From Sulfurimonas sp. (GTDB taxonomy: Bacteria; Campylobacterota; Campylobacteria; Campylobacterales; Sulfurimonadaceae), in assembly GCF_029027405.1 (NCBI RefSeq), contig NZ_CP093396.1, positions 620,001 through 684,000 of the forward strand: a stretch of 64,000 bases of DNA, read 5' to 3'. Below the pieces are notes generated by a model. It had not been told where the DNA came from. It ran no database searches and saw nothing but the letters and a program-made list of their open reading frames with translations. Within the stretch, counting starts at the first letter, position 1; each line of letters begins with the position of its first letter. A program made the position numbers and the translations under genes. Below are positions 2,608-41,254 of the stretch, one piece after another.

Positions 2608-5025
2608 ATGAGAGTCATAATCGTTGGTGGTGGCATCGTTGCTGTGTATTTAGCAAATAACTTAAAACGACTTAGTTCGCATTTAGAAATTACTATCTTA
2701 AGTGATGAAAAGTATTTGCCTTATGACAGGATTCATCTTTGTCGTTTAATAGATGGCTCACAAATAACTTCGGATATTTCTTTAACTCTTGACCCTATGG
2801 TAAAAGTAGAGTTAAATCAAAAGATAATTAAGATAGATAAAAAAGCTAAACGAGTATTTTCTCATAATTCAATGTTTACTTATGACAAACTTATCATGGC
2901 AACAGGCTCACTTCCTATCTCATTATTTAATAATGAGGGTATTTCAAATGTAGCCATTTTTAGAAGTGCAGATGATTGTACTCTCATAAAAGATGGCATA
3001 AAGAGTAGGGAAGTTGTTATAGTTGGTAGTGGTCCGATTTCTCTTGAGCTTTTAGAAACTCTAAGCAAGATGCCAAATGTCTTAAAAATCACATTACTCA
3101 TACGAGCTAAGCATCTATACTCTAAACATCTAAGCATAGATGCTATAAAAATCATACAAGACTGTTATATAAGTAGTGGAAAAATCAACATATCTTATGA
3201 AGATGAGATAGTTGATAAAGTTATAACAAATGGTGAAGTCACACTTCTTAAAACTAAAAAACTAAATATACGAAACCCTTTTATTATATTTGGTATTGGG
3301 ATTAAACCAAATATACAAGAGTTTAGAGATGAGCTTAGGTGTAACAGAGGTATCTTAACAAACAGGTATATGCAAAGTGAAGATGAAAATATATATGCTG
3401 TTGGTGAATGTGCTGAGGTAGAAAAGTTTGGCTTTGTTGCTGGACATGTTAAAGAGTGTACTTCTCAAGCTGATTGTGCGATTTCACATATTTTACAAAG
3501 AGAAGTCAAAGAGTTTGAACTTGAAGTTAGCATAGATATGTTAAAAGTTGGAGAGTTTGATTTGGTAGAAGTTAACTCTGCTAAGTTTACAAATGAGTAT
3601 GAAAAGATACTGATAAGTTCTAAAAAAGACAATAGAATTGATGAATATTTTGTAAATGATGATAAATTAACAAGGTTTATAGGAATAAACTCAAATGTAG
3701 ATATTGCATATATACAAACTCTCATAGATAGTGGTGAAAAAGTTGATATTAACTATCTTTATGAGAACAGACTAATTGGTGAGAGGGGAAGACTTGTTTG
3801 TAGTTGTGAGCATGTATATGTCCTAGATTTAGTAGATATAGTAAAACAAACAGGAATCACTTCCTTTGGAGAGCTTTCAGACTTTAGTGAGGCTGGACGA
3901 GTTTGTGGTAGATGTAAAATAATGGTTCAAGATATTATAAAAGAATCTCAACATTTAATAGACCCAAATATGCTACGAAAAACTCCAGAGGATTTAAAAA
4001 GAGAAAAAGAGATAGCTAAAGTTCAAAAACGACTAGATAAGTTTAATGCACTAAATCCCATAAATAAATTGACTACAAAAAATTTAGAAGCAGCCATTAG
4101 TTCTATTGATATTGCAAAGTCAGAAGTAAATAGTTGGGTGTCAATGGTAACAGCAAATATGCAACTGCATCCAAATTTTGAACAGGTTGTAGATGCTGGA
4201 GTGACAATGCTTAATAAGATTCCTATTATTTGGTTAGAGTTAAGTGATTGTAGTGGAAATTCAGAAGCATTTATAAAATCAGCAAACCCAAGCATAGAAG
4301 AGCTGATATTTGATTATATCTCACTTGATTATCATGAACTTTTGATGAGTGCAAGTGGTGAGCAGAGTGAAACAATTTTACAAGATATAGTTAAAAATCA
4401 AAAGGGTGAGTATATTTTAATAGTAGAAGGTGCTGTTCCTTTAGCAATGGATGGAAAGTTTTTAAGAATAGGTCCAGATGCTAAAACAGGCATAGAACTT
4501 TTACGAGAGTGTGCTAAAGATGCTGCGTTAGTGTTAGCTGTTGGAAGTTGTGCTTTAGATGGAGGCATCGTAGCTGCCGCGCCAAACCCAACAGGAGCAG
4601 TCGGAGTAAGTGAAGCTCTAAAAAGAGATGACATCATAAACCTTCCTGGATGTCCTGTAAACCCAACAAATATAGTGGGAACATTATTATCCTACATAAT
4701 GTTTGAAGAGTTGCCAGTTTTAGATAAGTTTAACCGACCTTTATGGGTTTATGAAGGTAGAGTTCATGACAACTGTGAGAGAAGAGGTCACTATGAACTA
4801 GGAGAGTTTGTAGAGGAGTGGGGAGATGAAGGTGCAAAAAAAGGTTACTGTCTTTTTGAGATGGGATGTAAAGGCCCTTATGCAAATGTAAACTGCCCAA
4901 CTATGAAGTTTAACCAAGGTACGAGTTGGTCTGTTCAAGCAGGTCACGGCTGTATGGCATGTACAGAGATGGGCTTTGTCGATAAGTTTGCAAATGAGCG
5001 AGTTTACAAAGAGGATGAAGAGTAA
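2608..5025 (+). CDS. Fusion of FAD-dependent oxidoreductase, BFD-like [2Fe-2S] domain and [NiFe]-hydrogenase small subunit
   Basis: An 805-aa three-part protein. Residues 1 to about 385 are a pyridine-nucleotide-disulfide-type FAD oxidoreductase resembling NirB or rubredoxin reductase (GGGIVAVYLA start, ATGSLP, GIKPN and YAVGECAE motifs). Residues about 395-445 are a BFD-like [2Fe-2S] domain with C398-x-C400 and C433-x2-C436. Residues about 520-805 are the hydrogenase small subunit, with C648, C682, H720, C723, C748, C754, C763, C782 and C785 as cluster ligands. There is no Tat signal, so it is cytoplasmic. The first proximal-cluster motif reads C548-S-G-N551, where CxGC is usual. The stop overlaps the start of the large subunit by one base (TAATG). 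The likely role is H2 oxidation with electrons passed via Fe-S and FAD to a soluble acceptor such as NAD(P)+. It resembles group 2d-type enzymes of Aquificota and Campylobacterota, an assignment from memory rather than from a search. Confidence 0.88.
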   Translation: MRVIIVGGGIVAVYLANNLKRLSSHLEITILSDEKYLPYDRIHLCRLIDGSQITSDISLTLDPMVKVELNQKIIKIDKKAKRVFSHNSMFTYDKLIMATGSLPISLFNNEGISNVAIFRSADDCTLIKDGIKSREVVIVGSGPISLELLETLSKMPNVLKITLLIRAKHLYSKHLSIDAIKIIQDCYISSGKINISYEDEIVDKVITNGEVTLLKTKKLNIRNPFIIFGIGIKPNIQEFRDELRCNRGILTNRYMQSEDENIYAVGECAEVEKFGFVAGHVKECTSQADCAISHILQREVKEFELEVSIDMLKVGEFDLVEVNSAKFTNEYEKILISSKKDNRIDEYFVNDDKLTRFIGINSNVDIAYIQTLIDSGEKVDINYLYENRLIGERGRLVCSCEHVYVLDLVDIVKQTGITSFGELSDFSEAGRVCGRCKIMVQDIIKESQHLIDPNMLRKTPEDLKREKEIAKVQKRLDKFNALNPINKLTTKNLEAAISSIDIAKSEVNSWVSMVTANMQLHPNFEQVVDAGVTMLNKIPIIWLELSDCSGNSEAFIKSANPSIEELIFDYISLDYHELLMSASGEQSETILQDIVKNQKGEYILIVEGAVPLAMDGKFLRIGPDAKTGIELLRECAKDAALVLAVGSCALDGGIVAAAPNPTGAVGVSEALKRDDIINLPGCPVNPTNIVGTLLSYIMFEELPVLDKFNRPLWVYEGRVHDNCERRGHYELGEFVEEWGDEGAKKGYCLFEMGCKGPYANVNCPTMKFNQGTSWSVQAGHGCMACTEMGFVDKFANERVYKEDEE

Positions 5026-6683
5026 TGAAAAAAATTGTAATAGACCCCATAACAAGAATAGAAGGGCATCTAAGAGTTGAAGTAGAAGTTGATGAAGATG
5101 GCGTAGTTCAAGACGCATTTGTAAGTGGACAACTTTTTCGTGGAATAGAGATGATTTTAAAAAATCGTGACCCTAGAGATGCGGGACTATTAGCTGGAAG
5201 AATTTGTGGTGTTTGTACAAACTCTCATTTTCGTGCAGCTGTTAGTAGTGTTGAAGATGCTTACTCTCTAAAACTTCCTAAAAATGCCGAAATTATTCGT
5301 GACTTGATGGCGATGGCTCTTTTCATTCAAGACCATGTTGTTCATTTTTATCATCTTCATTCATTGGACTTTGTGGATATTACATCCGCTTTAAGTGCAG
5401 ATGCAAAACTAACCTCAAAAGAAGCACTCAAGTATCACGATAAGCCATTTAGAAATTCTCACTCACATTATGATGCTGTTTTAGATAAGTTGACTAAGTT
5501 TGTAGATGCTGGAAAACTTGGACCATTTGCAAATGCTTACTGGGGACATAGTTCATATAAATTAACACCAGAGCAAAATCTTATTATGATTTCACATTAT
5601 TTTGAAGCTTTAAAATTTCAAACAAAAATCAGTAAGGCAGTAGCTATTTTTGGTGGTAAAACTCCACATCCACAAAGTATAGTTGTTGGAGGAATTACAA
5701 GTGTAGCTGACATGTTAAATCCACAAAGACTTAATGATTATCTATTTATAATTAAAGAAGCTAAGGAGTTTATAGATAGAGCGTATTTACCAGATGCTAA
5801 ACTTTTAACTATCGCTTATAGAGATGAGATAAAAGCAGCAGACGGTAGAGCAAATGGTAACTTTTTATCTGTAGGTGGTTATGAGTTTGACGATAAAAGT
5901 TTGTTTAGTTCTGGTGTGATTTATAATCATGATTTTGAAAATATTTCAGAGTTTAATGAAAGTAAAATTACCGAAGAAATAGACCGAGCTTGGTATAAAA
6001 ATAAACCGCTTGATAATGAAGTAGAATATACAGACTTAAATCCAGATGCTACTTTAAAAACGGCAAAAAATGATGATAAATACTCATGGATAAAAGCTCC
6101 TAGATATGACGGTAAAGTTATGGAAACAGGACCATTGGCTAGAGTAATTATAAGTTATAAAAAAGACAACACTCTTATAAAATCTTTTGTAGATGAGTTT
6201 TTAGCATCTACAGACTTGGAACTTATGGACTTATCTTCTAGTGTTGGACGAAATGCAGCAAGAGCGATTGAAACCACTTATATTTGTGAATATATTTTTA
6301 AATTGGTTTCAAACTTGATACAAAATATAAAATATTATGACACAGAAACTTGGGTAAAATTTGATTTTGATTCTATGAAAAAAGAGACAAAAGGTAGAGC
6401 ATTTTTTGAAGTACCAAGAGGTACTCTGTCTCATTTTGTAAATATCAAAGATGCTAAGATTGAAAACTTCTCAGTAATTGCTCCAACAACATGGAATGCA
6501 ACTCCTAAAAACTTTGATGGAGTTAGAGGAGCTTATGAGGAAGCTTTGGTTGGCTTAAAGATACAAGACACTTCCAAACCACTAGAGGTTTTAAGAGTTC
6601 TTCATTCATTTGACCCATGTTTAGCATGTGCAGTGCATGTTATGGACTTTGGTAGTGCAAATTTAAATAAGTTTAAGGTTTAG
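5025..6683 (+). CDS. [NiFe]-hydrogenase large (catalytic) subunit, cytoplasmic uptake type
   Basis: 552 aa carrying the NiFe(CN)2CO active site. The N-terminal ligand motif is R59-I-C61-G-V-C64 and the C-terminal motif is D530-P-C532-L-A-C535-A-V-H538. Fourteen residues follow H538, so a maturation endopeptidase should trim the tail; no hyp or protease gene lies in this window. It is translationally coupled to the small-subunit fusion (TAATG overlap). The length and lack of an export partner fit the group 2 family. Together the two genes form a compact H2-oxidising unit that could feed reductant to carbon fixation. Confidence 0.95.
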   Translation: MKKIVIDPITRIEGHLRVEVEVDEDGVVQDAFVSGQLFRGIEMILKNRDPRDAGLLAGRICGVCTNSHFRAAVSSVEDAYSLKLPKNAEIIRDLMAMALFIQDHVVHFYHLHSLDFVDITSALSADAKLTSKEALKYHDKPFRNSHSHYDAVLDKLTKFVDAGKLGPFANAYWGHSSYKLTPEQNLIMISHYFEALKFQTKISKAVAIFGGKTPHPQSIVVGGITSVADMLNPQRLNDYLFIIKEAKEFIDRAYLPDAKLLTIAYRDEIKAADGRANGNFLSVGGYEFDDKSLFSSGVIYNHDFENISEFNESKITEEIDRAWYKNKPLDNEVEYTDLNPDATLKTAKNDDKYSWIKAPRYDGKVMETGPLARVIISYKKDNTLIKSFVDEFLASTDLELMDLSSSVGRNAARAIETTYICEYIFKLVSNLIQNIKYYDTETWVKFDFDSMKKETKGRAFFEVPRGTLSHFVNIKDAKIENFSVIAPTTWNATPKNFDGVRGAYEEALVGLKIQDTSKPLEVLRVLHSFDPCLACAVHVMDFGSANLNKFKV

Positions 6684-8034: not shown

Positions 8035-11000
8035 ATGGCAGGAGCTAGTATTGTAATTGAAGATGGTGTAATATTGTGTGCACATGGTGGAAAGGTTGTT
8101 TTAAAATCTAGTGTAGCTAACCATGTTATAGCTGGAAAAAAACCTCTTCATAATATAGACATTATCGGTGCAGCAATCTCAGGATGTCCTCATAGAGTCT
8201 CAAAAGGTGGACAGTGTACTAAAGTTGCTTCTATCAGTTCTGCTACTACAGAGTCAAATGTAACCTCACAGGGAAAAAACTACCTACTACGAGTAGATGG
8301 ATGTAAAACTGACAAAGGAGCCGCTCTTGTCTTAGCTAGTCCAGGACAAACACAGAGTAAAATAGGTGTAAAGTCTGGAGGAAGTGCTGCAAATATCATT
8401 ACTAAAGAACTTGAAACTGCAAAAGTAGATACTAAAGAAAATATAAAAAAAGAGAAATATCAAATTTATCCACTAAGACTAAGTGGGGAGTACATAAGAG
8501 CACTAAGAGGAGCAAGAGACTTTAGAGTTCTTAAAGACTATTATCAAACAAATACTAGTGACTATACTCAAGATAAAGTTGTCACAAAAACCGATGCTTA
8601 TTTATATGTTACAGATGCTATTAAAACTACAGAGTATAAGGTTATAAATAGAGGTGACTATTCTAACCCTAAGGTTGAGAAGGTACAGTTTAAAGATACA
8701 GATACACAAGTAATTCGTAAATATATACCCTGCTATGAAGAAGATGGAAAACTTGAAATCATCTACTCAAATGTAAAACTCACTAAAGAGCAACTGAGTA
8801 AGTTCACTCCAGTTTCTGTAACACTTACTGATAAAAAGAATCTTCATTGTATAAACCATAAAGATTATTCAAAGTCCATAAAACATACAAATAAAGAGAT
8901 GAAAGATATTTTAATCTCAAACAAAGAAGCTAAAAAACTAAACAAGTCACACTTAAACATAGTAGTTGAAATAGATGACCCTATCGGTGAAATAGAAGAT
9001 TTGTATGAAGAGCTAGAATGTTCTTTTCATACTGCTTATGCACATAACAAACCTTTAATAGACAGGATTAAACAACGCAATGCTTATGCCTATAGCGTAG
9101 CAAACTTTATGGATGAACTTGAAGTAAACTCAAACGAGAAACAAGAAAGAAAAAAGACAAAGAAAAAACTCCAAAAGGCTTACTATACTTTAGTTGAAGG
9201 GATGAAAGAAGATTTTATACCTTATATTATAGATACTTGTAAAGATAGAGGTTTTTCATGGAGCATCAAAGATAGTAATGCTTCTTTTATAAGACTTAAT
9301 ATTTTTGTTGAACATGATGTAGCTATGAGTTACTTAAATGAAGTAAAACTAAATGCTTCGTTTTTACTCAACACACAACATAACTATAATACCTTTGATG
9401 GGAGAAAAATAGAGCATCTTAATGAAAAATGTATCATTGAAAGTAAAAGTCATGACTATTTGTGTTTAGGTGTAAGAGCACATATCAATGGTAGTAAAAC
9501 ATCACACAAGTATGAGATGAGTACTAGAGAGAGTTATACAGAGATAACAGCATTAACACTTTTTAGTCTCTACTTTAGTGGTAAACATAATGATGCTATC
9601 GGTACTAAATATAAAGATGCTATAGAAGAGTTTCATTATAATTTAAAGAAGCTATCTGCTCATCCAGAGTTTGATGAAGATATTCAAGAAGAGATTAATG
9701 ATAAGCTTAAAGACAGTCCTTACACTAAACTCTTTAAAGATAAAAATGGTGACCGTACTGATAACTTCATTGATGATTATGAAAACTTAGAGACTATAGC
9801 TAAAGACTGCGCTTTTGAGTGGGAAGGAAATGATAAGACACAGCTTTTAAAGTTTGCTACTTTAATCCCCGCAAAAGAGACCTTTGAGTTTTTTTACGAA
9901 ATCCCAAAACATAGAGAATCCCCTCAAAATCTAAGTGAAACACTCTCCAAAGAACTTAAAAGTTCACAGCTCAAAGAACTACTAGAAAAGTACAGTAGTC
10001 TAAAAGATACAAGTTTAGAGAGAATAGGCCTACTTTTAAATATAGCTTACTCACTTACTGCAAGTAGAACTATGTTTGATGAAGAAGTAAATCAAACTTC
10101 TCCTTTTAATACAAAGAGTGCAGTTATGGACTTTTTAATCTCCATCTCAAAAAAACTTCAAGTACTCAAAGCAGATGAACATGAAAAGCTTTATAAAGAG
10201 GATATATTTCAACTTTATCATAAAAGCTTACACAGTTTAATCCTTCACTCACTTGTTAAAGGAAGCTATAACGAAAAAGAGTTTTTAAGCCGTCAAGATA
10301 ATGTAACGAAAAAATTTCTTGATGTCATAGCTCCAGAGACAGCAAAAGAGTACCAACTAGATTTAACAAAACTAGATGATGGAAGTATAGACAAAAACCT
10401 AGAAGTCAAAAAAACTCATGAAAAACTATTTGCACAGTTAAAAGCACTAGATGGGATAACTAGTCAGATTCATGCGGCTGAGGATAAGCAGAGCAAAAAT
10501 AAAAAAGCTGATGATGGACTTACGACCAAAGTGCAAAAGACTACTATTATTAAACAACTTAGAAACTCCCAACCCTATAAAATAACCATCCCAGCCCTAA
10601 AAGGACTAAGTTTCTTTGTAGCTCTCTATCAAACAGGTAAGATACTCAAAGATTACCAAAAAATGACCTTAAGCTCACTCCTAGAACTTTCAGTCTCCAT
10701 CAATGTCTTATCTAAGATTACAGGAGAAGCCGCACAAGCAACTAAGTTATTATCCTCCAAGGCAATAGCATATAATATGTTTAAAGCTATGAAAGAGGAA
10801 AAGCTTGTTTTTCAAAAAGTACTTACTAAACTTGCTATCCCTATTGTTATCTTTGGGGCTTACCATGAGATAGCTTCTTTGAATGATAAAGATTATGATG
10901 CAGTTGTTGCTCTCAGTGTTAAAACGGGGCTTACCATAGCTTTAATGCTCTTTGCCTCAGGTATAGGAGAAATCTTGATTATAGGTATAGCTATTGAGCT

Positions 11001-11718
11001 TATTTGGATGTCGATATCAAGCTATATTATTGATACTAATGTCGAAGTTATGATAGAGAAATCTCTCTTTTACCAAAATGGGCGTAAACCTTATATCTTA
11101 GAGAGTTTAAGTAGTGATACTAAAGAGTATCTTTATAAAGATAATTCTAAAAGTATTAAAGAAATTCCTTTTATGCAAAAACCTAAAGATATGAGAGACT
11201 TTATCTATGCAAACTATAGTTCTCATAAAAAAGAGTTTAATGCTGCGTTTAGTTATGAGCTAAGTTCTTTTTATGCCACTTTAAAAGGGGTGAATATTGA
11301 AAAATCTGGGCGTTCAAAACAATACAAATCAAGTAAAGCAACTTATGCTATATGTAGTTATGTCTCTATCTCTAAAGATTTTTATAAAGATATAAAACGC
11401 ATTGTACTTCTTGAAGATGATAAAGAGATAGAGATAGATATCTCACAACATGAACTGAAAAATGGTAAGGAGTATATAGACCTTTTAAGCCATTTAGATA
11501 TAAGTGACAGTTCGATTATACAAGAGTACTCTAAAAAAGATACCAAGTTATTACTTCATAGTGATGCAATTAGTCTGAAATATGATGTCGTTTATTACTA
11601 TGATGATGCAAGTAAGTATCTAAAGAGGCTAACAGGTGGTGCGTTAAAGATTATAGATATAAAATCTTTGCCTTTAACTAAAGATGATTGTAAAATACTA
11701 AATATTCAAATGAGTTAA
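8035..11718 (+). CDS. Effector copy A: PAAR-like domain + VasX-like N-terminal region + class I membrane module (intact)
   Basis: 1227 aa, the only copy with a full N-terminus. Residues 1 to about 115 look like a PAAR-like spike-tip domain (ILCAHGGKVVLKSS, ISGCPHRV, LASPGQTQSKIG). Residues about 142-565 resemble the N-terminal region of VasX/BTH_I2691-type type VI effectors: YPLRL...RALRGARDF, TDAYLYVTDA, and the DDPIGEIEDLYEEL motif at 313-326. From about 570 the protein is class-specific and helical. Hydrophobic segments lie near 848-868, 930-947 and 955-998, followed by a soluble 210-aa tail. This layout suits a colicin-like inner-membrane toxin. A Sel1-repeat gene starts 2 bp after its stop. 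The PAAR and VasX assignments come from motif memory, not a profile search. No type VI apparatus genes are nearby. Confidence 0.7.
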   Translation: MAGASIVIEDGVILCAHGGKVVLKSSVANHVIAGKKPLHNIDIIGAAISGCPHRVSKGGQCTKVASISSATTESNVTSQGKNYLLRVDGCKTDKGAALVLASPGQTQSKIGVKSGGSAANIITKELETAKVDTKENIKKEKYQIYPLRLSGEYIRALRGARDFRVLKDYYQTNTSDYTQDKVVTKTDAYLYVTDAIKTTEYKVINRGDYSNPKVEKVQFKDTDTQVIRKYIPCYEEDGKLEIIYSNVKLTKEQLSKFTPVSVTLTDKKNLHCINHKDYSKSIKHTNKEMKDILISNKEAKKLNKSHLNIVVEIDDPIGEIEDLYEELECSFHTAYAHNKPLIDRIKQRNAYAYSVANFMDELEVNSNEKQERKKTKKKLQKAYYTLVEGMKEDFIPYIIDTCKDRGFSWSIKDSNASFIRLNIFVEHDVAMSYLNEVKLNASFLLNTQHNYNTFDGRKIEHLNEKCIIESKSHDYLCLGVRAHINGSKTSHKYEMSTRESYTEITALTLFSLYFSGKHNDAIGTKYKDAIEEFHYNLKKLSAHPEFDEDIQEEINDKLKDSPYTKLFKDKNGDRTDNFIDDYENLETIAKDCAFEWEGNDKTQLLKFATLIPAKETFEFFYEIPKHRESPQNLSETLSKELKSSQLKELLEKYSSLKDTSLERIGLLLNIAYSLTASRTMFDEEVNQTSPFNTKSAVMDFLISISKKLQVLKADEHEKLYKEDIFQLYHKSLHSLILHSLVKGSYNEKEFLSRQDNVTKKFLDVIAPETAKEYQLDLTKLDDGSIDKNLEVKKTHEKLFAQLKALDGITSQIHAAEDKQSKNKKADDGLTTKVQKTTIIKQLRNSQPYKITIPALKGLSFFVALYQTGKILKDYQKMTLSSLLELSVSINVLSKITGEAAQATKLLSSKAIAYNMFKAMKEEKLVFQKVLTKLAIPIVIFGAYHEIASLNDKDYDAVVALSVKTGLTIALMLFASGIGEILIIGIAIELIWMSISSYIIDTNVEVMIEKSLFYQNGRKPYILESLSSDTKEYLYKDNSKSIKEIPFMQKPKDMRDFIYANYSSHKKEFNAAFSYELSSFYATLKGVNIEKSGRSKQYKSSKATYAICSYVSISKDFYKDIKRIVLLEDDKEIEIDISQHELKNGKEYIDLLSHLDISDSSIIQEYSKKDTKLLLHSDAISLKYDVVYYYDDASKYLKRLTGGALKIIDIKSLPLTKDDCKILNIQMS

Positions 11719-15754: not shown

Positions 15755-16555
15755 ATGAAAATGAAAAGAATGTTTAAAATATTTATATTACTGTTTGTCT
15801 TTGCTTCGCAGTCTCTCCTTGCAGAACAAGATATAAGTGATGAAGCTTTCAAGGCTTATAAAAAAGGTGAAAAACTTTATCAAACCAAGAAATATGATGA
15901 AGCCTTAAAATGGTTTAAAATTTCCTTTGATGAAGATTCATCTAAAGATTTAGCCTTTAACATCGGTTTAACTTATGATGAACTGAAAGATTACCCTAAT
16001 GCTATAAAATGGTATAGAAAAGCTTTTGAGATGGGAGACAAAAAAGGGGGAGCAAACTTAGGACTCCTATACGACGAAAAATTGAAGGATTATCCTAAAG
16101 CTATAAAATGGTATAAAAAAGCCATAAAAAAAGGTAATGTTAGTGCTATAAATAATCTAGCTATATTATATAAACAACAAAAAGATTATCCAAATGCGAT
16201 AAAATGGTATAAAAAAGCTTTTGAGATGGGGAATCTGGATGGTGCATATAACTTAGGTTGTTTATATGATGTAAATAAAAAAGATTTTAAAAATGCCATT
16301 ATTTGGTACAAAAAAGCAGCCAAGAAAGGACATAAAAAAGCTATAAATAATCTTGGTGAAGTTTACCATGATTTAAAAGACAACATCACTGCATCTGCAT
16401 ATGTTTTAGCTGGAATTGTATATGGATATGATAAACAAGAAACTTTTAAGTATTTAAATAAAACTTGGAAAATAGATGAGCCAACCATGATAAAAGCCTA
16501 CAAACTACAACAAACCCTAGACATCCCAAAACACTACATAGGTGACATTGACTAA
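15755..16555 (+). CDS. Exported Sel1-repeat protein, class II (copy B), candidate immunity protein
   Basis: 266 aa, the longest Sel1 copy. A signal peptide spans about residues 1-22 (FILLFVFASQSLLAEQ). About five Sel1-type repeats follow with the consensus YPNAIKWYKKAFEMG and NNLAILYKQQKD. It follows effector B by 6 bp with an AAAGGA ribosome site. It has its own C-terminus (YKLQQTLDIPKHYIGDID), unlike the NPYTGGI end of the other copies. The leader and first repeat match copy E, which also sits behind a class II effector. Periplasmic location would suit neutralising an incoming membrane toxin; this function is inferred. Confidence 0.7.
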   Translation: MKMKRMFKIFILLFVFASQSLLAEQDISDEAFKAYKKGEKLYQTKKYDEALKWFKISFDEDSSKDLAFNIGLTYDELKDYPNAIKWYRKAFEMGDKKGGANLGLLYDEKLKDYPKAIKWYKKAIKKGNVSAINNLAILYKQQKDYPNAIKWYKKAFEMGNLDGAYNLGCLYDVNKKDFKNAIIWYKKAAKKGHKKAINNLGEVYHDLKDNITASAYVLAGIVYGYDKQETFKYLNKTWKIDEPTMIKAYKLQQTLDIPKHYIGDID

Positions 16556-18532: not shown

Positions 18533-19868
18533 TATACTACCCCAAGAAAATCAAACAACTATTTCTAAAGTTTAATTCTTAAAAGAGTAAAATTAAACAA
18601 TAAAAATAGAAGGTAATCTTATGAGTCGAAAAAGAACAACATATACAGCAGAATTCAAGACAAAGTTAGTTTTAGAAGTTTTAAAAGAAGATAAGACACT
18701 AAATGAAATAGCAAGTGTAAATAATATCACACCAAAAAACTTACAAAATTGGAAGAAGATATTTTTGGAAAATGCAGAAGTTGCGATGGAACCTGCAAAA
18801 GTAATTAAAGAGTACAAAGAAGAGAATGTAAGATTACAAGCTAAACTTGATGAATATGCAAAGGTTGTAGGTCAACTAACAGTAGAGAAGGACTGGGCGG
18901 TGGGAAAGTTAAGCAGCTTGGACTCTAGCTATAAAAAGGAGTTGATTGATAGAGATGAAAATAAGGCATTATCAGTTGTAAAACAATGTAATCTTATTAA
19001 CTATAACAGAAGTAATTTGTTCTATGCACCAATGGTAAATCTTGCTAAAAATGTAATTAAAAAACATATAGAAAAAGTATTTGAAGAGATACCAAGCTAT
19101 GGCTATATGAAAGTGTATCATCAACTACTAGAGGATGGTTTTCGTGTCAGTCCCAACACAGTGCTGGCATACCGTAGAGAGTTAGGTTTACAGGCTGTTT
19201 TAGCTGTAAGACCACCAAATACAAGCTGGGCGGACAAGCAACATCATAAATACTCTTACAAAATAAGAGGATTAGATATCGTAAGAGCAAACCAAGTATG
19301 GTCAACAGATATAACCTATATTAAAATTAAAGGTGGTATGGTCTATATGGCTGCCATAATTGATTGGTATTCTAAAGCAATATTATCTTGGCGAATATCC
19401 AACACAATGGATACAGATTTAGTCATAGGTGTACTAGATGAAGCACTCGCACTCTATGGTAAGCCTGAAATATTTAATACTGATCAAGGATCACAATATA
19501 CAAGCTGTATCCACACTCAAACATTAAAAGATAATGACATAATTATCTCTATGGATGGCAAAGGTAGAGCAACAGATAATATTTGTATTGAGAGGTTCTG
19601 GAGAAGTGCTAAAGTTGAAAAAATATACCTCAATGAATATGAGAGAGTATCAGTTCTCAAAAGTGATGTTAAGGATTATATAGAATTTTATAATCACAGA
19701 AGATTTCATGAGACATTGAAATATAAAAAACCTATGAATGTTTATTATGATAGTTTAAAAATCAATGATGAGAATTACACTAAATCTAGTGAAAATGTAG
19801 CATAGGGTAACAGGTATTTAGGGAATTAGATTTTTGAAAAAGTTGTCTTGACATATTGGGGTAGTATA
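18533..19868 (+). mobile_element. IS3-family insertion sequence, copy 1 (complete, 1336 bp)
   Basis: Bounded by imperfect inverted repeats of about 30 bp, beginning TATACTACCCCAA on the left and ending TTGGGGTAGTATA on the right. Its length is identical to the copy at 30086-31421. It carries one transposase ORF. No clean target duplication exists, because its left neighbour is the inverted IS remnant and its right neighbour is effector C. This points to a deletion or IS-IS recombination after insertion. The right end carries an outward-facing TTGACA. Confidence 0.9.
18621..19805 (+). CDS. IS3-family transposase (single ORF)
   Basis: 394 aa. The N-terminal helix-turn-helix (YTAEFKTKLVLEVLKEDKTL) is of OrfA type. 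A coiled-coil linker follows near 70-95, then the integrase core with D in VWSTDIT, D in NTDQGSQYTS and E in IERFWRSAK. In many IS3 elements OrfA and OrfB are separate and joined by frameshift; here they form one continuous frame. It differs from the copy at 30174-31358 by one residue near the end (ERVSVL against ERVSIL). It appears intact and probably active or recently active. Confidence 0.92.
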   Translation: MSRKRTTYTAEFKTKLVLEVLKEDKTLNEIASVNNITPKNLQNWKKIFLENAEVAMEPAKVIKEYKEENVRLQAKLDEYAKVVGQLTVEKDWAVGKLSSLDSSYKKELIDRDENKALSVVKQCNLINYNRSNLFYAPMVNLAKNVIKKHIEKVFEEIPSYGYMKVYHQLLEDGFRVSPNTVLAYRRELGLQAVLAVRPPNTSWADKQHHKYSYKIRGLDIVRANQVWSTDITYIKIKGGMVYMAAIIDWYSKAILSWRISNTMDTDLVIGVLDEALALYGKPEIFNTDQGSQYTSCIHTQTLKDNDIIISMDGKGRATDNICIERFWRSAKVEKIYLNEYERVSVLKSDVKDYIEFYNHRRFHETLKYKKPMNVYYDSLKINDENYTKSSENVA

Positions 19869-30085: not shown

Positions 30086-31421
30086 TATACTACCCCAAGA
30101 AAATCAAACAACTATTTCTAAAGTTTAATTCTTAAAAGAGTAAAATTAAACAATAAAAATAGAAGGTAATCTTATGAGTCGAAAAAGAACAACATATACA
30201 GCAGAATTCAAGACAAAGTTAGTTTTAGAAGTTTTAAAAGAAGATAAGACACTAAATGAAATAGCAAGTGTAAATAATATCACACCAAAAAACTTACAAA
30301 ATTGGAAGAAGATATTTTTGGAAAATGCAGAAGTTGCGATGGAACCTGCAAAAGTAATTAAAGAGTACAAAGAAGAGAATGTAAGATTACAAGCTAAACT
30401 TGATGAATATGCAAAGGTTGTAGGTCAACTAACAGTAGAGAAGGACTGGGCGGTGGGAAAGTTAAGCAGCTTGGACTCTAGCTATAAAAAGGAGTTGATT
30501 GATAGAGATGAAAATAAGGCATTATCAGTTGTAAAACAATGTAATCTTATTAACTATAACAGAAGTAATTTGTTCTATGCACCAATGGTAAATCTTGCTA
30601 AAAATGTAATTAAAAAACATATAGAAAAAGTATTTGAAGAGATACCAAGCTATGGCTATATGAAAGTGTATCATCAACTACTAGAGGATGGTTTTCGTGT
30701 CAGTCCCAACACAGTGCTGGCATACCGTAGAGAGTTAGGTTTACAGGCTGTTTTAGCTGTAAGACCACCAAATACAAGCTGGGCGGACAAGCAACATCAT
30801 AAATACTCTTACAAAATAAGAGGATTAGATATCGTAAGAGCAAACCAAGTATGGTCAACAGATATAACCTATATTAAAATTAAAGGTGGTATGGTCTATA
30901 TGGCTGCCATAATTGATTGGTATTCTAAAGCAATATTATCTTGGCGAATATCCAACACAATGGATACAGATTTAGTCATAGGTGTACTAGATGAAGCACT
31001 CGCACTCTATGGTAAGCCTGAGATATTTAATACTGATCAAGGGTCACAATATACAAGCTGTATCCACACTCAAACATTAAAAGATAATGACATAATTATC
31101 TCTATGGATGGCAAAGGTAGAGCAACAGATAATATTTGTATTGAGAGGTTCTGGAGAAGTGCTAAAGTTGAAAAAATATACCTCAATGAATATGAGAGAG
31201 TATCAATTCTCAAAAGTGATGTTAAGGATTATATAGAATTTTATAATCACAGAAGATTTCATGAGACATTGAAATATAAAAAACCTATGAATGTTTATTA
31301 TGATAGTTTAAAAATCAATGATGAGAATTACACTAAATCTAGTGAAAATGTAGCATAGGGTAACAGGTATTTAGGGAATTAGATTTTTGAAAAAGTTGTC
31401 TTGACATATTGGGGTAGTATA
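30086..31421 (+). mobile_element. IS3-family insertion sequence, copy 2 (complete, 1336 bp)
   Basis: Same terminal repeats (TATACTACCCCAA ... TTGGGGTAGTATA) and the same length as copy 1. Here the target site is clean: TCT at 30083-30085 is repeated at 31422-31424, a 3-bp duplication of the kind IS3 elements make. The uninterrupted target is seen in copy B (AAGTCTCTTATTCC). It inserted in the same direction as the effector gene. Confidence 0.93.
30174..31358 (+). CDS. IS3-family transposase (single ORF), copy 2
   Basis: 394 aa, near-identical to the ORF at 18621-19805 (ERVSIL here, ERVSVL there). Helix-turn-helix at the N-terminus, integrase core with the DDE residues in STDIT, NTDQGS and CIERFW. 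Intact frame, GAAGGT ribosome site 6 bases ahead of the ATG. An adjacent element end with a fresh 3-bp target duplication suggests recent movement. Confidence 0.92.
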   Translation: MSRKRTTYTAEFKTKLVLEVLKEDKTLNEIASVNNITPKNLQNWKKIFLENAEVAMEPAKVIKEYKEENVRLQAKLDEYAKVVGQLTVEKDWAVGKLSSLDSSYKKELIDRDENKALSVVKQCNLINYNRSNLFYAPMVNLAKNVIKKHIEKVFEEIPSYGYMKVYHQLLEDGFRVSPNTVLAYRRELGLQAVLAVRPPNTSWADKQHHKYSYKIRGLDIVRANQVWSTDITYIKIKGGMVYMAAIIDWYSKAILSWRISNTMDTDLVIGVLDEALALYGKPEIFNTDQGSQYTSCIHTQTLKDNDIIISMDGKGRATDNICIERFWRSAKVEKIYLNEYERVSILKSDVKDYIEFYNHRRFHETLKYKKPMNVYYDSLKINDENYTKSSENVA

Positions 31422-35096: not shown

Positions 35097-35779
35097 ATGA
35101 AAAAATTATTTAAAATATTGTTATTAGTTAATTTACTCTCAATTCAAATACTGTTTGCGAACAGTGCATCTGAAGATGCCTCAGACAAAGCAACAATATA
35201 TTATGAAAAACAAGACTATAAAGAAGCATTAAAATGGTCAAAAAAATCATTTGACGAAGAAGCATCTAAAGAAGTGGCTTTCAATATTGGGTTGGCTTAT
35301 AAAAGATTAAAAGATTACCAGAACGCTATCAAGTGGTATGAAAAAGCTTTTGAAATGGGAAATACTGATGGGGGGGGGCTAATCTAGGATTATTGTATGA
35401 CGAAGTTTTAAAAGATTATCCAAATGCTATAAAATGGTATAAAAAAGCTATCCAAAAAGGTGATGTTGATGCTATAAATAATCTAGCTATATTATATAAA
35501 GAACAAAAAGATTATCCAAATGCTATAAAATGGTATAAAAAAGCCATAAAAAAAGGGCATATTGATGCAAGAAAAAGCCTAGGCTTACTTTACCATCAAC
35601 AAAAAGACAAGCTAAACAGTGCAACCTACATGATGGGAATGATAGGACATCCTTACACAAAAGAAAGAGTTTTAGGCTTGTTACGAGATGACTGGAAAAT
35701 CGACGAACCAACCCTAAAAAAAGCCTACAAACTCCAAAAAACTCTAGTTCCAAACCCATACACAGGTGGCATTGACTAA
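35097..35779 (+). pseudogene. Exported Sel1-repeat gene, class II-like (copy F), frame broken at a G9 tract
   Basis: It begins MKKLFKILLLVNLLSIQILFA, a signal peptide related to class II but with its own mature start (SASEDASDKAT). The frame reads to NTDGGGLI and stops at 35387. The second half (35393-35779) carries on the normal repeats to NPYTGGID in another frame. The break is at nine Gs (35370-35378). Seven or ten Gs would restore DGGANLGLLYDE. It is either a phase-variable gene caught in the off state, a true pseudogene, or a homopolymer sequencing error. Confidence 0.7.
35370..35378 (+). repeat. Homopolymer G9 tract inside Sel1 copy F
   Basis: Nine consecutive Gs at the GGAN codons of a Sel1 repeat. 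The same codons hold G7 in copy A (12137-12143), G6 in copy E and G5 in copy B, all in frame. Poly-G tracts of this length are classic phase-variation sites in Campylobacter and Helicobacter; action here is inferred. Confidence 0.7.
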
Positions 35780-38648: not shown

Positions 38649-40055
38649 ATGAATATAAATCGTAGAGATGCACTTAAAATGGGTGCTGTTAGTGTTGTTG
38701 CTGCTGCAACTGCTTTAAGTGTAACAGGATGTGGTAAGGCTGAGGCTGTTCCAGCAGCGGCTTGTTCTAATAAAAATATTCTTGGCAAACATCAAGTTGT
38801 AATTATTGGTGGAGGTTTTGGTGGTTTAACAGTTGCTAAAAACTTAAAGAAAAAAGATAAAAATATTGATGTTCTTGTGATAGAAAAAAATGATACATTT
38901 ATGTCTTGTCCATTTTCAAATGCATACTTAGGCAAGCTTGATGGTGTTAATTTAGGAACTTTTGTACACGATTATGCTCAACCTACTCAAAAATATGGTT
39001 ATGGCATGTTACGCTCTGAAGTTGTAAGCATAAATGCTAAAGCAAAAGAGGTTACAACTGCACACGGTGTAGTTGGGTATGATACTTTAGTTCTTTCTCC
39101 AGGTATTGCATATAATTATGAACAACAATTTCCTACATTCTCAAAAGAAAAAATCGCTGAAATCCAAAGAACTGCACCAGGGGCATTGATTCCAGGTAGT
39201 GAACATGTTATTTTAGAGAGAAGTTTATCTAATATGGAAGATGGTGATGTTGTTATTACTGTTCCATCAGGAAAATTTCGTTGTCCACCTGCTCCATTTG
39301 AAAGAGCTTGTATGATAGCTTCATATATGAAAAAAGAAGATATCCAAGGTAAAGTAATCATTCTTAACCCTAGTGCTAAGATAGCCAAAGGTGCTGCGTT
39401 TAAAGAAGCATGGAAAGAGCTATATGGCAATAGAATTATTCATATGGATAATTGTAAAATTGATGATGTTGATGTTAATGGAAAATCTATTTCTTTCACT
39501 CAGCAAGTTTCAACAGGTAAAAAAGATTCAGATGGCTTAGCAATAACTAAAGCTGTTAAAAAATCTCATAAATATGAAGTTCTTAACCTTATCCCTAACA
39601 ACAAAGCAAATGCTGTTGTAGCTATGTCAGGTGTTGCAACTACACAAGATTCTTTTGGTAAAGTTCTTATGAATGGTTGTTCTTTTAGAACAAAATCAGA
39701 TGAAAATATTTATGCTGTTGGTGATGTTGTAGGTCATGGTATCCCACCAAGTGGTCAAACTGCAGTATGGGCTGGTAAACAGTGTGCAGATGAAATCGTT
39801 AATAGAATTCAGAAAAAATCATTTACTTTAGCTGTTAAATCTAAATCAGTTACTGCCGGTAATGTTTGTTACTCAATGGTTGGTGATAACCCAGAAGAAG
39901 CGATTATGGTAACACATGATTTTTCTTGGACAGGAAAAATAATCAAAGGTAAAGGAAATGTACCTAAAGCTCCTAGTGGTAAATTCCGTTCAAAAGGAAC
40001 TGCTAAAGCTACTCGTGATTGGTATAGTGGAATAATGAGAGATTTATTTAGTTAA
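38649..40055 (+). CDS. Tat-exported FAD flavoprotein of the flavocytochrome c sulfide dehydrogenase / SoxF family
   Basis: 468 aa. The twin-arginine leader is NINRRDALKMG, with a lipobox-like VTGC ending at C28, so it may be a Tat-exported lipoprotein. The FAD fold starts at VVIIGGGFGGLTVAKNL. The active-site region GKFRCPPAPFERACM holds C212, equivalent to one redox cysteine of FccB. The region where FccB has its second cysteine reads YAVGDVVGHGIPPSG, with no cysteine; C344 (NGCSF) is the nearest. The C-terminal FCSD flavin-binding domain (CYSMVGDNPEEAIMV) is present. A likely role is periplasmic sulfide or related sulfur oxidation. The partners downstream are a Rieske protein and a cytochrome rather than FccA. 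Confidence 0.82.
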   Translation: MNINRRDALKMGAVSVVAAATALSVTGCGKAEAVPAAACSNKNILGKHQVVIIGGGFGGLTVAKNLKKKDKNIDVLVIEKNDTFMSCPFSNAYLGKLDGVNLGTFVHDYAQPTQKYGYGMLRSEVVSINAKAKEVTTAHGVVGYDTLVLSPGIAYNYEQQFPTFSKEKIAEIQRTAPGALIPGSEHVILERSLSNMEDGDVVITVPSGKFRCPPAPFERACMIASYMKKEDIQGKVIILNPSAKIAKGAAFKEAWKELYGNRIIHMDNCKIDDVDVNGKSISFTQQVSTGKKDSDGLAITKAVKKSHKYEVLNLIPNNKANAVVAMSGVATTQDSFGKVLMNGCSFRTKSDENIYAVGDVVGHGIPPSGQTAVWAGKQCADEIVNRIQKKSFTLAVKSKSVTAGNVCYSMVGDNPEEAIMVTHDFSWTGKIIKGKGNVPKAPSGKFRSKGTAKATRDWYSGIMRDLFS

Positions 40056-40058
40056 TCA

Positions 40059-40087
40059 AATAGAAGAGTTCTAAACTCTTCTATTTT
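40059..40087 (+). terminator. Intrinsic terminator or attenuator after the flavoprotein gene
   Basis: AATAGAAGAGTT, loop CTA, AACTCTTCTATT, then TT: a perfect 12-bp stem with 3-base loop ending in a short T run. It lies between the flavoprotein and Rieske genes. It probably lowers transcription of the downstream pair relative to the flavoprotein, or protects the upstream mRNA. Confidence 0.65.
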
Positions 40088-40103
40088 CAAGTAAAGGATT
40101 TTT

Positions 40104-40832
40104 GTGGATAGAAGAAATTTTTTAAAAATAGTAGGTACCACGGGGGTGCTTATGGCAGTGTCTCCCTCCTGTATAAACTCCAAATTGTATGCGGATAATG
40201 GAACTCTTTTTATATCTTATGAAAGAGTACAGCTCTTAGATGCAAATGGAAAACCAATCAAAGCAAGCTCTTTAAAGAAAGAAACAAACTATGTTTTTAA
40301 TTATCCTTTTGTCTCAACACCAGTAATTTTATTAGATCTTGATGAACCAACACTTAAAGATGTAAAATTAAAATCAGAAGACGGTGAAGAGTATATTTGG
40401 AAAGGTGGAGTAGGTTCAAAAGGCACGATAGTTGCCTATGTAGCTATTTGTTCTCATCAGTTAGCACATCCAACTCCAGAGGATAGTTTCTTGCAGTATT
40501 GTCAAAAAGATAAAAAAACAATGTCATATAAAGAGGGTGGAGTTATGGTTTGCTCTTCACATTTGTCTGCTTTTGATGTAAAAAGTGGCTGTAAAAATCT
40601 TTCAGGACCAGCTGAAGAACCTTTAGCTAGTGTTATTTTGGAGATTGATAAAGATGATACAATTTGGGCAAGTGCAGTTTTAGGACCAGATAAGTTTCAT
40701 GAATATTTTAAAGCTTTCAAGCCGGAACTAAAAAAATTCTATGGTGGAAAAAGAAAAGGCAAGAAAAAAATTAAAAATTCTGCAACTCTTTTGCCATTAA
40801 CAGAGTACACAAAAGAAATAGTTCAATATTAA
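40104..40832 (+). CDS. Tat-exported Rieske [2Fe-2S] protein
   Basis: 242 aa, GTG start with AAAGGA upstream. The leader MDRRNFLKIVGTTGVLM is a twin-arginine signal. Rieske cluster ligands are C116-S-H118 and C150-S-S-H153 (VMVCSSHLSAFD). The region between holds an extra cysteine (QYCQK). A lysine-rich stretch lies near the C-terminus (GGKRKGKKKIK). Operon position suggests it carries electrons between the flavoprotein and the cytochrome. It is not the Rieske of a bc1 complex, as no cytochrome b is present. Confidence 0.82.
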   Translation: MDRRNFLKIVGTTGVLMAVSPSCINSKLYADNGTLFISYERVQLLDANGKPIKASSLKKETNYVFNYPFVSTPVILLDLDEPTLKDVKLKSEDGEEYIWKGGVGSKGTIVAYVAICSHQLAHPTPEDSFLQYCQKDKKTMSYKEGGVMVCSSHLSAFDVKSGCKNLSGPAEEPLASVILEIDKDDTIWASAVLGPDKFHEYFKAFKPELKKFYGGKRKGKKKIKNSATLLPLTEYTKEIVQY

Positions 40833-40840
40833 GGGGTAAT

Positions 40841-41254
40841 ATGAAAATAGTTAAATTTTTATTGATTTGGGCTTTAGTCGCTACATCGCTACTTGGTTCT
40901 AAAGTAGAACAAGATGAACTTAAATCAGATATGAGAACAATGCTTAGTGCTATGGAAGACTTACAAAGAGCAGGTTTTTATAACAATAAAAAAGGTGTTC
41001 GAGAATCTGCAAAAAAGTTGATTGATAATTTGGATTCTTTAATAACCTCTGATGCAAGAGCATATCTTCCAGATGCCGTAGCTGATGCAGGAAAATTTGC
41101 TAAAAAAAGAGAAAAAATGATTAAAATGTATGCAAATGATTTAGTTGAATCAATACAAAATGGCAATTATGATGACGCAATAGAAGATTATGCTCAAATA
41201 CTTACTCAATGTACATCTTGTCATAGTCGTATTAGAAAAAGAGTTTGGAAATAA
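40841..41254 (+). CDS. Periplasmic cytochrome c'-like protein
   Basis: 137 aa with a signal peptide (residues 1 to about 19, LLIWALVATSLLGS). The body is helical and the single heme-binding motif C124-T-S-C127-H128 lies at the extreme C-terminus. That is the layout of four-helix cytochromes c'/c556. It begins 8 bp after the Rieske gene, so it is co-transcribed. Probable electron acceptor of the flavoprotein/Rieske pair; the heme environment (NO/CO binding or electron transfer) cannot be told from sequence. Confidence 0.8.
   Translation: MKIVKFLLIWALVATSLLGSKVEQDELKSDMRTMLSAMEDLQRAGFYNNKKGVRESAKKLIDNLDSLITSDARAYLPDAVADAGKFAKKREKMIKMYANDLVESIQNGNYDDAIEDYAQILTQCTSCHSRIRKRVWK

Follow-up and report, generated by a model that had tools for sequence, protein, structure and literature searches.

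We studied a three-gene locus in a 64,000-nucleotide stretch of the Sulfurimonas sp. genome (assembly GCF_029027405.1, contig NZ_CP093396.1, positions 620,001 to 684,000 of the forward strand; the whole stretch is called here the window). The first gene encodes an FccB sulfide dehydrogenase, i.e., a flavin subunit of the flavocytochrome c sulfide dehydrogenase (FCSD) family, with its set of active-site residues intact and with an unusual, conserved set of partners: a Rieske [2Fe-2S] protein and a class II cytochrome c. We consider it probable that the three proteins form a periplasmic FccB-type sulfide dehydrogenase in which electrons would pass from flavin adenine dinucleotide (FAD) to the Rieske protein and then to the cytochrome, with predicted His/Met haem ligation, this pair replacing the cytochrome subunit FccA. 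The three open reading frames (ORFs) are co-directional, at positions 38649-40055, 40104-40832 and 40841-41254 of the positive strand, with intergenic gaps of 48 and 8 bp, in a genome that is a single contig of 2.83 Mb. The features are as follows:

38649..40055, + strand: fccB-type flavoprotein (sulfide dehydrogenase flavin subunit), 468 aa, with a twin-arginine translocation (Tat) signal; from Pfam, alignment and fold
38907..38909, + strand: codon of C87, matching the FAD-linking Cys42 of 1FCD; from alignment, 72 of 72 in the clade
39282..39284, + strand: codon of C212, matching the redox Cys161; from alignment, 123 of 123
39867..39869, + strand: codon of C407, matching the redox Cys337, the cysteine that an earlier note on this DNA called missing (see below); from alignment, 123 of 123
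40104..40832, + strand: Rieske [2Fe-2S] protein, 242 aa, GTG start, twin-arginine signal; from Pfam and ligand motifs
40449..40457, + strand: first Rieske ligand pair, C116-S-H118; C and H in 96 of 96
40551..40562, + strand: second Rieske ligand pair, C150-SS-H153; C and H in 96 of 96
40841..41254, + strand: monohaem cytochrome c of class II (four-helix), 137 aa, with a signal peptide judged by eye; from Pfam (below cut-off) and model
40931..40933, + strand: codon of M31, predicted distal haem ligand; 47 of 47, and the b562 alignment row
41210..41224, + strand: haem-binding CTSCH (C124, C127, H128); from motif and conservation

ORFs and Pfam matches bore out the earlier note in its description of the trio as an FccB-type flavoprotein, a Tat-exported Rieske protein and a cytochrome in the place of FccA. 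No FccA-like gene adjoined the trio at this locus, where the neighbours of fccB are the genes of the Rieske protein and the four-helix cytochrome; the trio likewise had neither a sox gene nor a molybdopterin subunit gene next to it.

The flavoprotein scored 96.7 bits against the Pfam family FCSD_central (cut-off 27) and 34 bits against FCSD-flav_bind (cut-off 26). Among the best 25 of 74 families matched, the sulfide:quinone reductase (SQR) model SQR_III_seleno gave 77 bits, below its cut-off of 525. A structural model built from a 72-row alignment (predicted local distance difference test, pLDDT, 92.1) had as its top three matches in the PDB the FCSD flavin chains 5n1t, 3vrd and 1fcd, with TM scores by target of 0.91, 0.88 and 0.88, followed by SQRs; the fold comparison ranks FCSD above SQR. 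Residue equivalences were counted from the printed alignment rows of the window FccB and 1fcd: C87, C212, E218 and C407 align to Cys42, Cys161, Glu167 and Cys337 of 1FCD, respectively. Both C212 and C407 were Cys in all 123 FccBs of the compared loci, and E218 was invariant in the 72-row alignment. The FAD-linking position C87 was Cys in every one of the 72 proteins of the window's clade and in 14 of 27 in a second Rieske-linked group (see below).

The Rieske protein, with a twin-arginine N-terminus, reached 23.4 bits against the Pfam Rieske cut-off of 20.3, and the same family matched 28 of 30 relatives. All four cluster ligands, in the motifs CxH and CxxH, were invariant in the 96 aligned rows. 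Rieske proteins of the bc1 type carry a disulfide cysteine pair next to the ligands, with the motif C-P-C-H. These cysteines were absent here: the positions are A121 and S152 in the window, and T/A/S and S/A/T, respectively, over the 96 rows. The closest solved relatives of the Rieske profile were the Sulfolobus Rieske protein soxF and AioB of arsenite oxidase; the second ligand motif is mostly C-S-S-H in the family, compared with C-P-x-H in AioB. Two positions after the histidine (H+2) there was Ser in 87 of 96 proteins, and at H+4 Phe in 62 and Tyr in 34; a serine at H+2 together with an aromatic residue at H+4 suits a medium to high potential. A scan of named records for relatives returned, among the best 80 of 437, titles from Campylobacterota or unplaced organisms, save one Petrimonas record, probably a binning error. 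Among plasmids, the Rieske protein matched just two records, both from Thermus, whose annotation below the match reads arsenate reductase (azurin) small subunit.

The cytochrome scored 23.0 bits against the Pfam cytochrome c-prime family (PF01322), below the cut-off of 26.5, and PF01322 matched 21 of its 47 relatives at E 0.01 or better. A PDB search with the sequence alone gave chance-level matches, and a profile search reached cytochrome c-prime at E 0.03. In the model (pLDDT 87.3) four helices form a bundle, the last of them carrying CxxCH. Its VIA matches included Kusta0087/0088, cytochrome b562 and many unrelated four-helix bundles near Z 13; cytochromes c-prime, cb562 and Kusta0087/0088 were among the fold matches, and unrelated helical bundles score alike, so that fold alone is weak, and the VIA list supports just the fold and register of the modelled cytochrome. 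The b562 row (256b_A; Z 12.5, root-mean-square deviation 2.7, 104 aligned) has model positions 25-132 spanning chain positions 1-106, and its end offsets place M31 on Met7 and H128 on His102 in a haem-free model. Met7 and His102 are the haem ligands of cytochrome b562 (256b). Both M31 and H128 were invariant in all 47 relatives. Because there is an invariant methionine at the distal position, the evidence points to a predicted low-spin, six-coordinate His/Met electron carrier rather than a gas-binding c-prime. The earlier note had called this protein cytochrome c'-like, which is right for the fold and probably does not extend to the gas-binding type.

The co-occurrence of the three genes, which the earlier note proposed as a check, was surveyed in 397 Campylobacterota genomes. 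The Rieske family had 40 genes in 39 of these genomes, after a match in G079 (34 residues with stops) was set aside. An fccB gene lay within 1 kb of 39 of the 40 Rieske genes, on the same strand in 38 cases and with a gap of at most 150 bp in 33; a chance neighbourhood of Rieske and fccB was rejected by this linkage. The fortieth Rieske gene (genome G278, contig C18) starts 1288 bases from the contig end, and in L148, a named record with a match at the position of G278, an FccB-family ORF, soxY and soxZ precede the Rieske gene. All 39 genomes fall among the 87 with an fccB match at E 1e-25 (hypergeometric P ~5e-30, kinship ignored), i.e., a Rieske-family gene without an fccB match in the same genome occurred in 0 of 39. 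A relative of the class II cytochrome was found near 27 of the 40 Rieske genes; this count took 27 of 53 places, and of the other 26, by eye, none was within 2.5 kb of a Rieske gene. At least 114 FccB places were present in the 87 genomes (FccB counts are lower bounds, with at most four candidates scored per genome at E 1e-25), and a Rieske gene adjoined 18 of the 20 FccBs with at least 50% identity to that of the window, compared with 21 of the 94 below 50%. Of 86 neighbourhoods, 83 had FccB, 83 had Rieske and 65 had the cytochrome, and soxY (11) and soxZ (10) recurred; the Rieske proteins of L108, L109 and L142 were not assigned to the family by the script, and the gene-order display covers 83 loci. 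Gene orders (F, fccB; R, Rieske; c, cytochrome) included F-R-c, R-c-F, R-F, F-soxYZ-R-c and F-R-soxYZ-c among others, and the other flanking families look lineage-specific by eye. Plasmid matches to FccB came from six records, two of which were opened: FccB lies beside soxC and a cytochrome in one, and between YeeE/YedE and soxY in the other.

Three further observations concern these loci. A family of exported-looking proteins occurs near the module in 17 of the 86 loci (e.g., L099:2696-4084 and L107:6850-8361), mostly in Sulfuricurvum and some in Sulfurimonas; the six full-length members listed have 437-504 aa, and the two that were scanned gave no Pfam match. Locus L106, a single contig, has the Rieske gene, the cytochrome gene and the FccB-family ORF in two copies each. 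In L105 (4586-5985) the fccB beside the Rieske gene is split into two overlapping ORFs, i.e., it is frameshifted or misassembled.

A tree of 123 FccB proteins, 96 of them Rieske-linked owing to the way loci were fetched, placed the Rieske-linked proteins in two groups, about one third identical to each other; it is a quick tree with long-branch warnings. Lineage labels used a cut of 46% identity, which coincides with the 72-row clade of this tree. The FccB lineage switches at least four times on the Rieske tree, counted over 88 rows with a labelled FccB and leaving out 8 Rieske rows without one. Protein distances were compared over the 66 loci having all three proteins, and since pairs of loci are not independent the correlations are descriptive and not tests. 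Within lineages (n=1225 pairs) all three protein pairs correlated at 0.91 to 0.93; across lineages (n=920) the Rieske-cytochrome correlation was 0.88, whereas those of FccB with Rieske and with the cytochrome were -0.10 and -0.12. Because the cross-lineage correlation is high for this pair and near zero for FccB, the Rieske protein and the cytochrome appear, from their sequences, to travel as one inherited unit, beside which the dehydrogenase has been exchanged between two distant FccB lineages. The opposite arrangement, one FccB lineage bound to one Rieske lineage, was rejected by the same correlations and by the lineage changes.

The two lineages also differed in their surroundings. A soxY or soxZ gene was near the Rieske gene (tblastn 1e-5, within 2.5 kb) in 16 of 28 second-lineage loci vs 0 of 64 window-lineage loci; the count took one Rieske gene per locus (98 distinct), with the second module of L106 excluded and some loci having only 1.5 kb of flank. 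For two kinds of locus the identity of SoxY and SoxZ was confirmed by Pfam. Since soxYZ are found near the second lineage and not near that of the window, this distribution suggests that the window's FccB lineage would act on free sulfide and not on SoxYZ-bound sulfur. The window genome has only one other FccB by Pfam, which belongs to the second tree group, has no Rieske gene beside it and is separated by ~3 kb from soxZ and soxY; behind these two come genes for a c-type cytochrome and a molybdopterin oxidoreductase, as in soxCD. This second FccB has glycine at the FAD-linking position, as do 13 of the 27 second-group Rieske-linked FccBs (L065, L114, L119, L129 and nine more). The 13 keep the redox cysteine pair, and because all of them sit in one Sulfuricurvum/Sulfurovum clade of the FccB tree, the linking cysteine was probably lost in a single event; judging by sequence, these proteins would bind FAD without a covalent Cys bond.

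For the trio we propose the following path. The Tat-exported flavoprotein would oxidise sulfide at the FAD and the C212-C407 disulfide to zero-valent sulfur or polysulfide, as expected by homology with FCSD. The reduced FAD would then hand over its electrons singly to the [2Fe-2S] cluster of the Rieske protein, a step suggested by the gene linkage, and the Rieske protein would reduce the small class II cytochrome c, by analogy with the transfer from AioB to cytochrome c552 in arsenite oxidase. From there the electrons would presumably enter the cytochrome c pool and reach a terminal oxidase or reductase. A broader and more tentative idea, somewhat less likely than not, is that this is a third FccB architecture: a Rieske protein and a His/Met class II cytochrome would form a swappable exit that receives electrons directly from the flavin that oxidises sulfide, and two distant FccB lineages would have been equipped with it, one using free sulfide and the other tied to SoxYZ.

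The nearest published relative is DhsU1, an Aquificota FccB from a Sulfurihydrogenibium-like organism, LSSB. According to the accessible text of that report, it oxidises sulfide with a Km of 16.7 µM, horse cytochrome c serving as the electron acceptor, is inactive towards sulfur, sulfite and thiosulfate, and works as a monomer in recombinant form; its residues equivalent to C87, C212/C407 and E218 are the FAD link, the disulfide and the active-site Glu (PMC3504083). Its gene cluster, compared by gene content only, likewise combines an fccB, a Rieske gene and a gene for a cytochrome-like protein, but in the order cytochrome-dhsU1-Rieske-dhsU2-sox genes, and the Rieske protein is given no role in the text accessible (PMC3504083).

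Several results weigh against the proposed FAD-Rieske-cytochrome path. DhsU1 by itself reduced horse cytochrome c, according to the same accessible text, so that a Rieske intermediary is dispensable in vitro, and its cluster contains sox genes, which that of the window does not (PMC3504083). No cytochrome relative was found near 13 of the 40 Rieske genes (search cut at E 1e-9), and 2 of the 20 window-type FccBs (G002 and G092) lack an adjoining Rieske gene, both genomes having a Rieske gene beside another fccB. The Rieske protein has no C-P-x-H proline and differs from AioB exactly where AioB donates to its cytochrome. Foldseek gave no match for the cytochrome at E 0.001 or better, and PsbQ tops its list.

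Two other explanations of the locus seem to us unlikely, to about the same degree. The flavoprotein might be a SoxF-like accessory of the Sox system that oxidises or repairs SoxYZ-bound sulfur, with the Rieske/cytochrome pair taking the electrons. The sox genes of the second-lineage loci, which occupy three different cluster positions, fit this explanation, as do the soxZ/soxY and soxCD-like genes near the other FccB of the window genome and the sox genes of the DhsU1 cluster (PMC3504083, accessible text); it is opposed by the lack of soxYZ near any of the 64 window-lineage loci and of a sox gene beside the window's trio, and by the action of the assayed relative, DhsU1, on free sulfide (PMC3504083, same text). 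Alternatively, FccB and the Rieske/cytochrome pair may share a pathway and not be direct partners: FccB would reduce a general cytochrome c, and the Rieske protein would serve another donor, sensing or protection. The unaided reduction of cytochrome c by DhsU1 (PMC3504083, as above) and the 13 Rieske genes with no cytochrome found nearby are as this predicts, but the confinement of the Rieske family to genomes with an fccB match and an adjacency kept through at least four exchanges of the FccB lineage argue against it.

More improbable still is an enzyme for another reduced compound, e.g., polysulfide, an organic thiol or another element such as arsenic. It would suit a Rieske protein whose nearest solved structures are AioB and soxF, as well as partners unlike those of FccAB; yet the complete FCSD active-site set is present, no molybdopterin subunit adjoins the trio, and the accessible text on DhsU1 reports it inactive with sulfur, sulfite and thiosulfate (PMC3504083). 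The earlier note had left the choice between a variant sulfide dehydrogenase and such an enzyme; its variant sulfide dehydrogenase is supported, FccA being replaced by a Rieske protein and a cytochrome of class II, and its argument for another substrate, which came mainly from an absent second redox cysteine, falls because C407 is present. That argument rested on GDVVGHGIPPSG after YAVGD, which indeed holds no cysteine, but in the FccB family this is not the place of the second one: in FCSD it (Cys337 of 1FCD) lies ~50 residues past YAVGD, within an NxCYS motif, and the alignment that the note had itself named as a refuting check found the canonical cysteine elsewhere, at C407. A lost second cysteine with C344 or C221 as its substitute can be dismissed almost with certainty, since C407 is conserved throughout the FccBs compared and C344 and C221 are variable, Cys in 29 and 10 of the 72 proteins of the window's clade, respectively.

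Other known systems share single traits with the preferred reading, a sulfide dehydrogenase feeding a Rieske protein and a cytochrome. FccAB (1FCD, 3VRD) has the FccB fold, the FAD-linking Cys, the redox Cys pair and the active-site Glu of the window FccB, but next to the window's fccB there are genes for a Rieske protein and for a class II cytochrome, and none for FccA. The best fold match, FccB-CopC of Thioalkalivibrio paradoxus (5N1T), is an FccB with a non-FccA partner, which in that case is a copper chaperone. The SoxF protein of Paracoccus is reportedly an FccB-type flavoprotein without a tightly bound cytochrome, encoded in the sox cluster, whereas the window's FccB lies outside any sox cluster. 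In AioAB with cytochrome c552 a Rieske protein donates to a small c-type cytochrome, with 7.5 Å between the AioB cluster and the haem, but the donor is a molybdenum enzyme and the AioB motif is C-P-x-H where that of the window's Rieske family is mostly C-S-S-H (PMC10071563, accessible text). Within the Campylobacterota, the Fcc of Sulfurimonas pluma was termed non-canonical in 2023 (PMC10066037), and a report on Thiomicrolovo described two Fcc copies that fall on separate branches and group with Sulfurimonas, Sulfurovum, Aquificales and thermophilic archaea, among others (PMC12403661). Both resemble the window's system as Campylobacterota Fcc of a non-canonical or two-branch kind, but no Rieske protein or class II cytochrome is mentioned with them in the accessible parts of either text (PMC10066037, PMC12403661). 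A 2015 review, in its accessible text, stated that FCC genes were not found in the Sulfurimonas genomes then known (PMC4584964). The trio has a partial printed precedent in the DhsU1 cluster (PMC3504083, accessible text); as a conserved unit in Campylobacterota we did not find it described among the openly available papers that the searches listed, supplements apart.

Elsewhere in the window, gpmI-like and fabG-like genes come after the trio. A promoter and terminator scan of the trio gave signals inside the spread of shuffled sequences, and no transcript limits are claimed. The region 2608-6683 encodes an 805-aa fusion of three parts (a Pyr_redox_2 reductase, a [2Fe-2S] domain of the BFD-like kind and the small subunit of a [NiFe]-hydrogenase), with the large subunit directly after it. 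An array of large ORFs, alike by eye and up to 1227 aa, occupies 8035-35084; the one scanned (8035-11715) had no Pfam match, and two transposase genes (18621-19805 and 30174-31358), which look nearly identical by eye, interrupt the array. At 35097-35779 a tract of nine G breaks a TPR/Sel1-like gene into two reading frames, which looks like phase variation or a sequencing slip, and a paralogue of it at 15755-16555 has an open frame with TPR matches.

In vents and redoxclines, sulfide oxidation by Sulfurimonas, Sulfuricurvum and Sulfurovum is an important process. If the proposed path is true, a Rieske protein would be the direct acceptor of an FccB-type flavoprotein, which would answer how Campylobacterota run flavocytochrome c without FccA; the conserved Rieske/cytochrome pair offers a testable answer to the fate of electrons from Campylobacterota FccBs, and a marker for their annotation.

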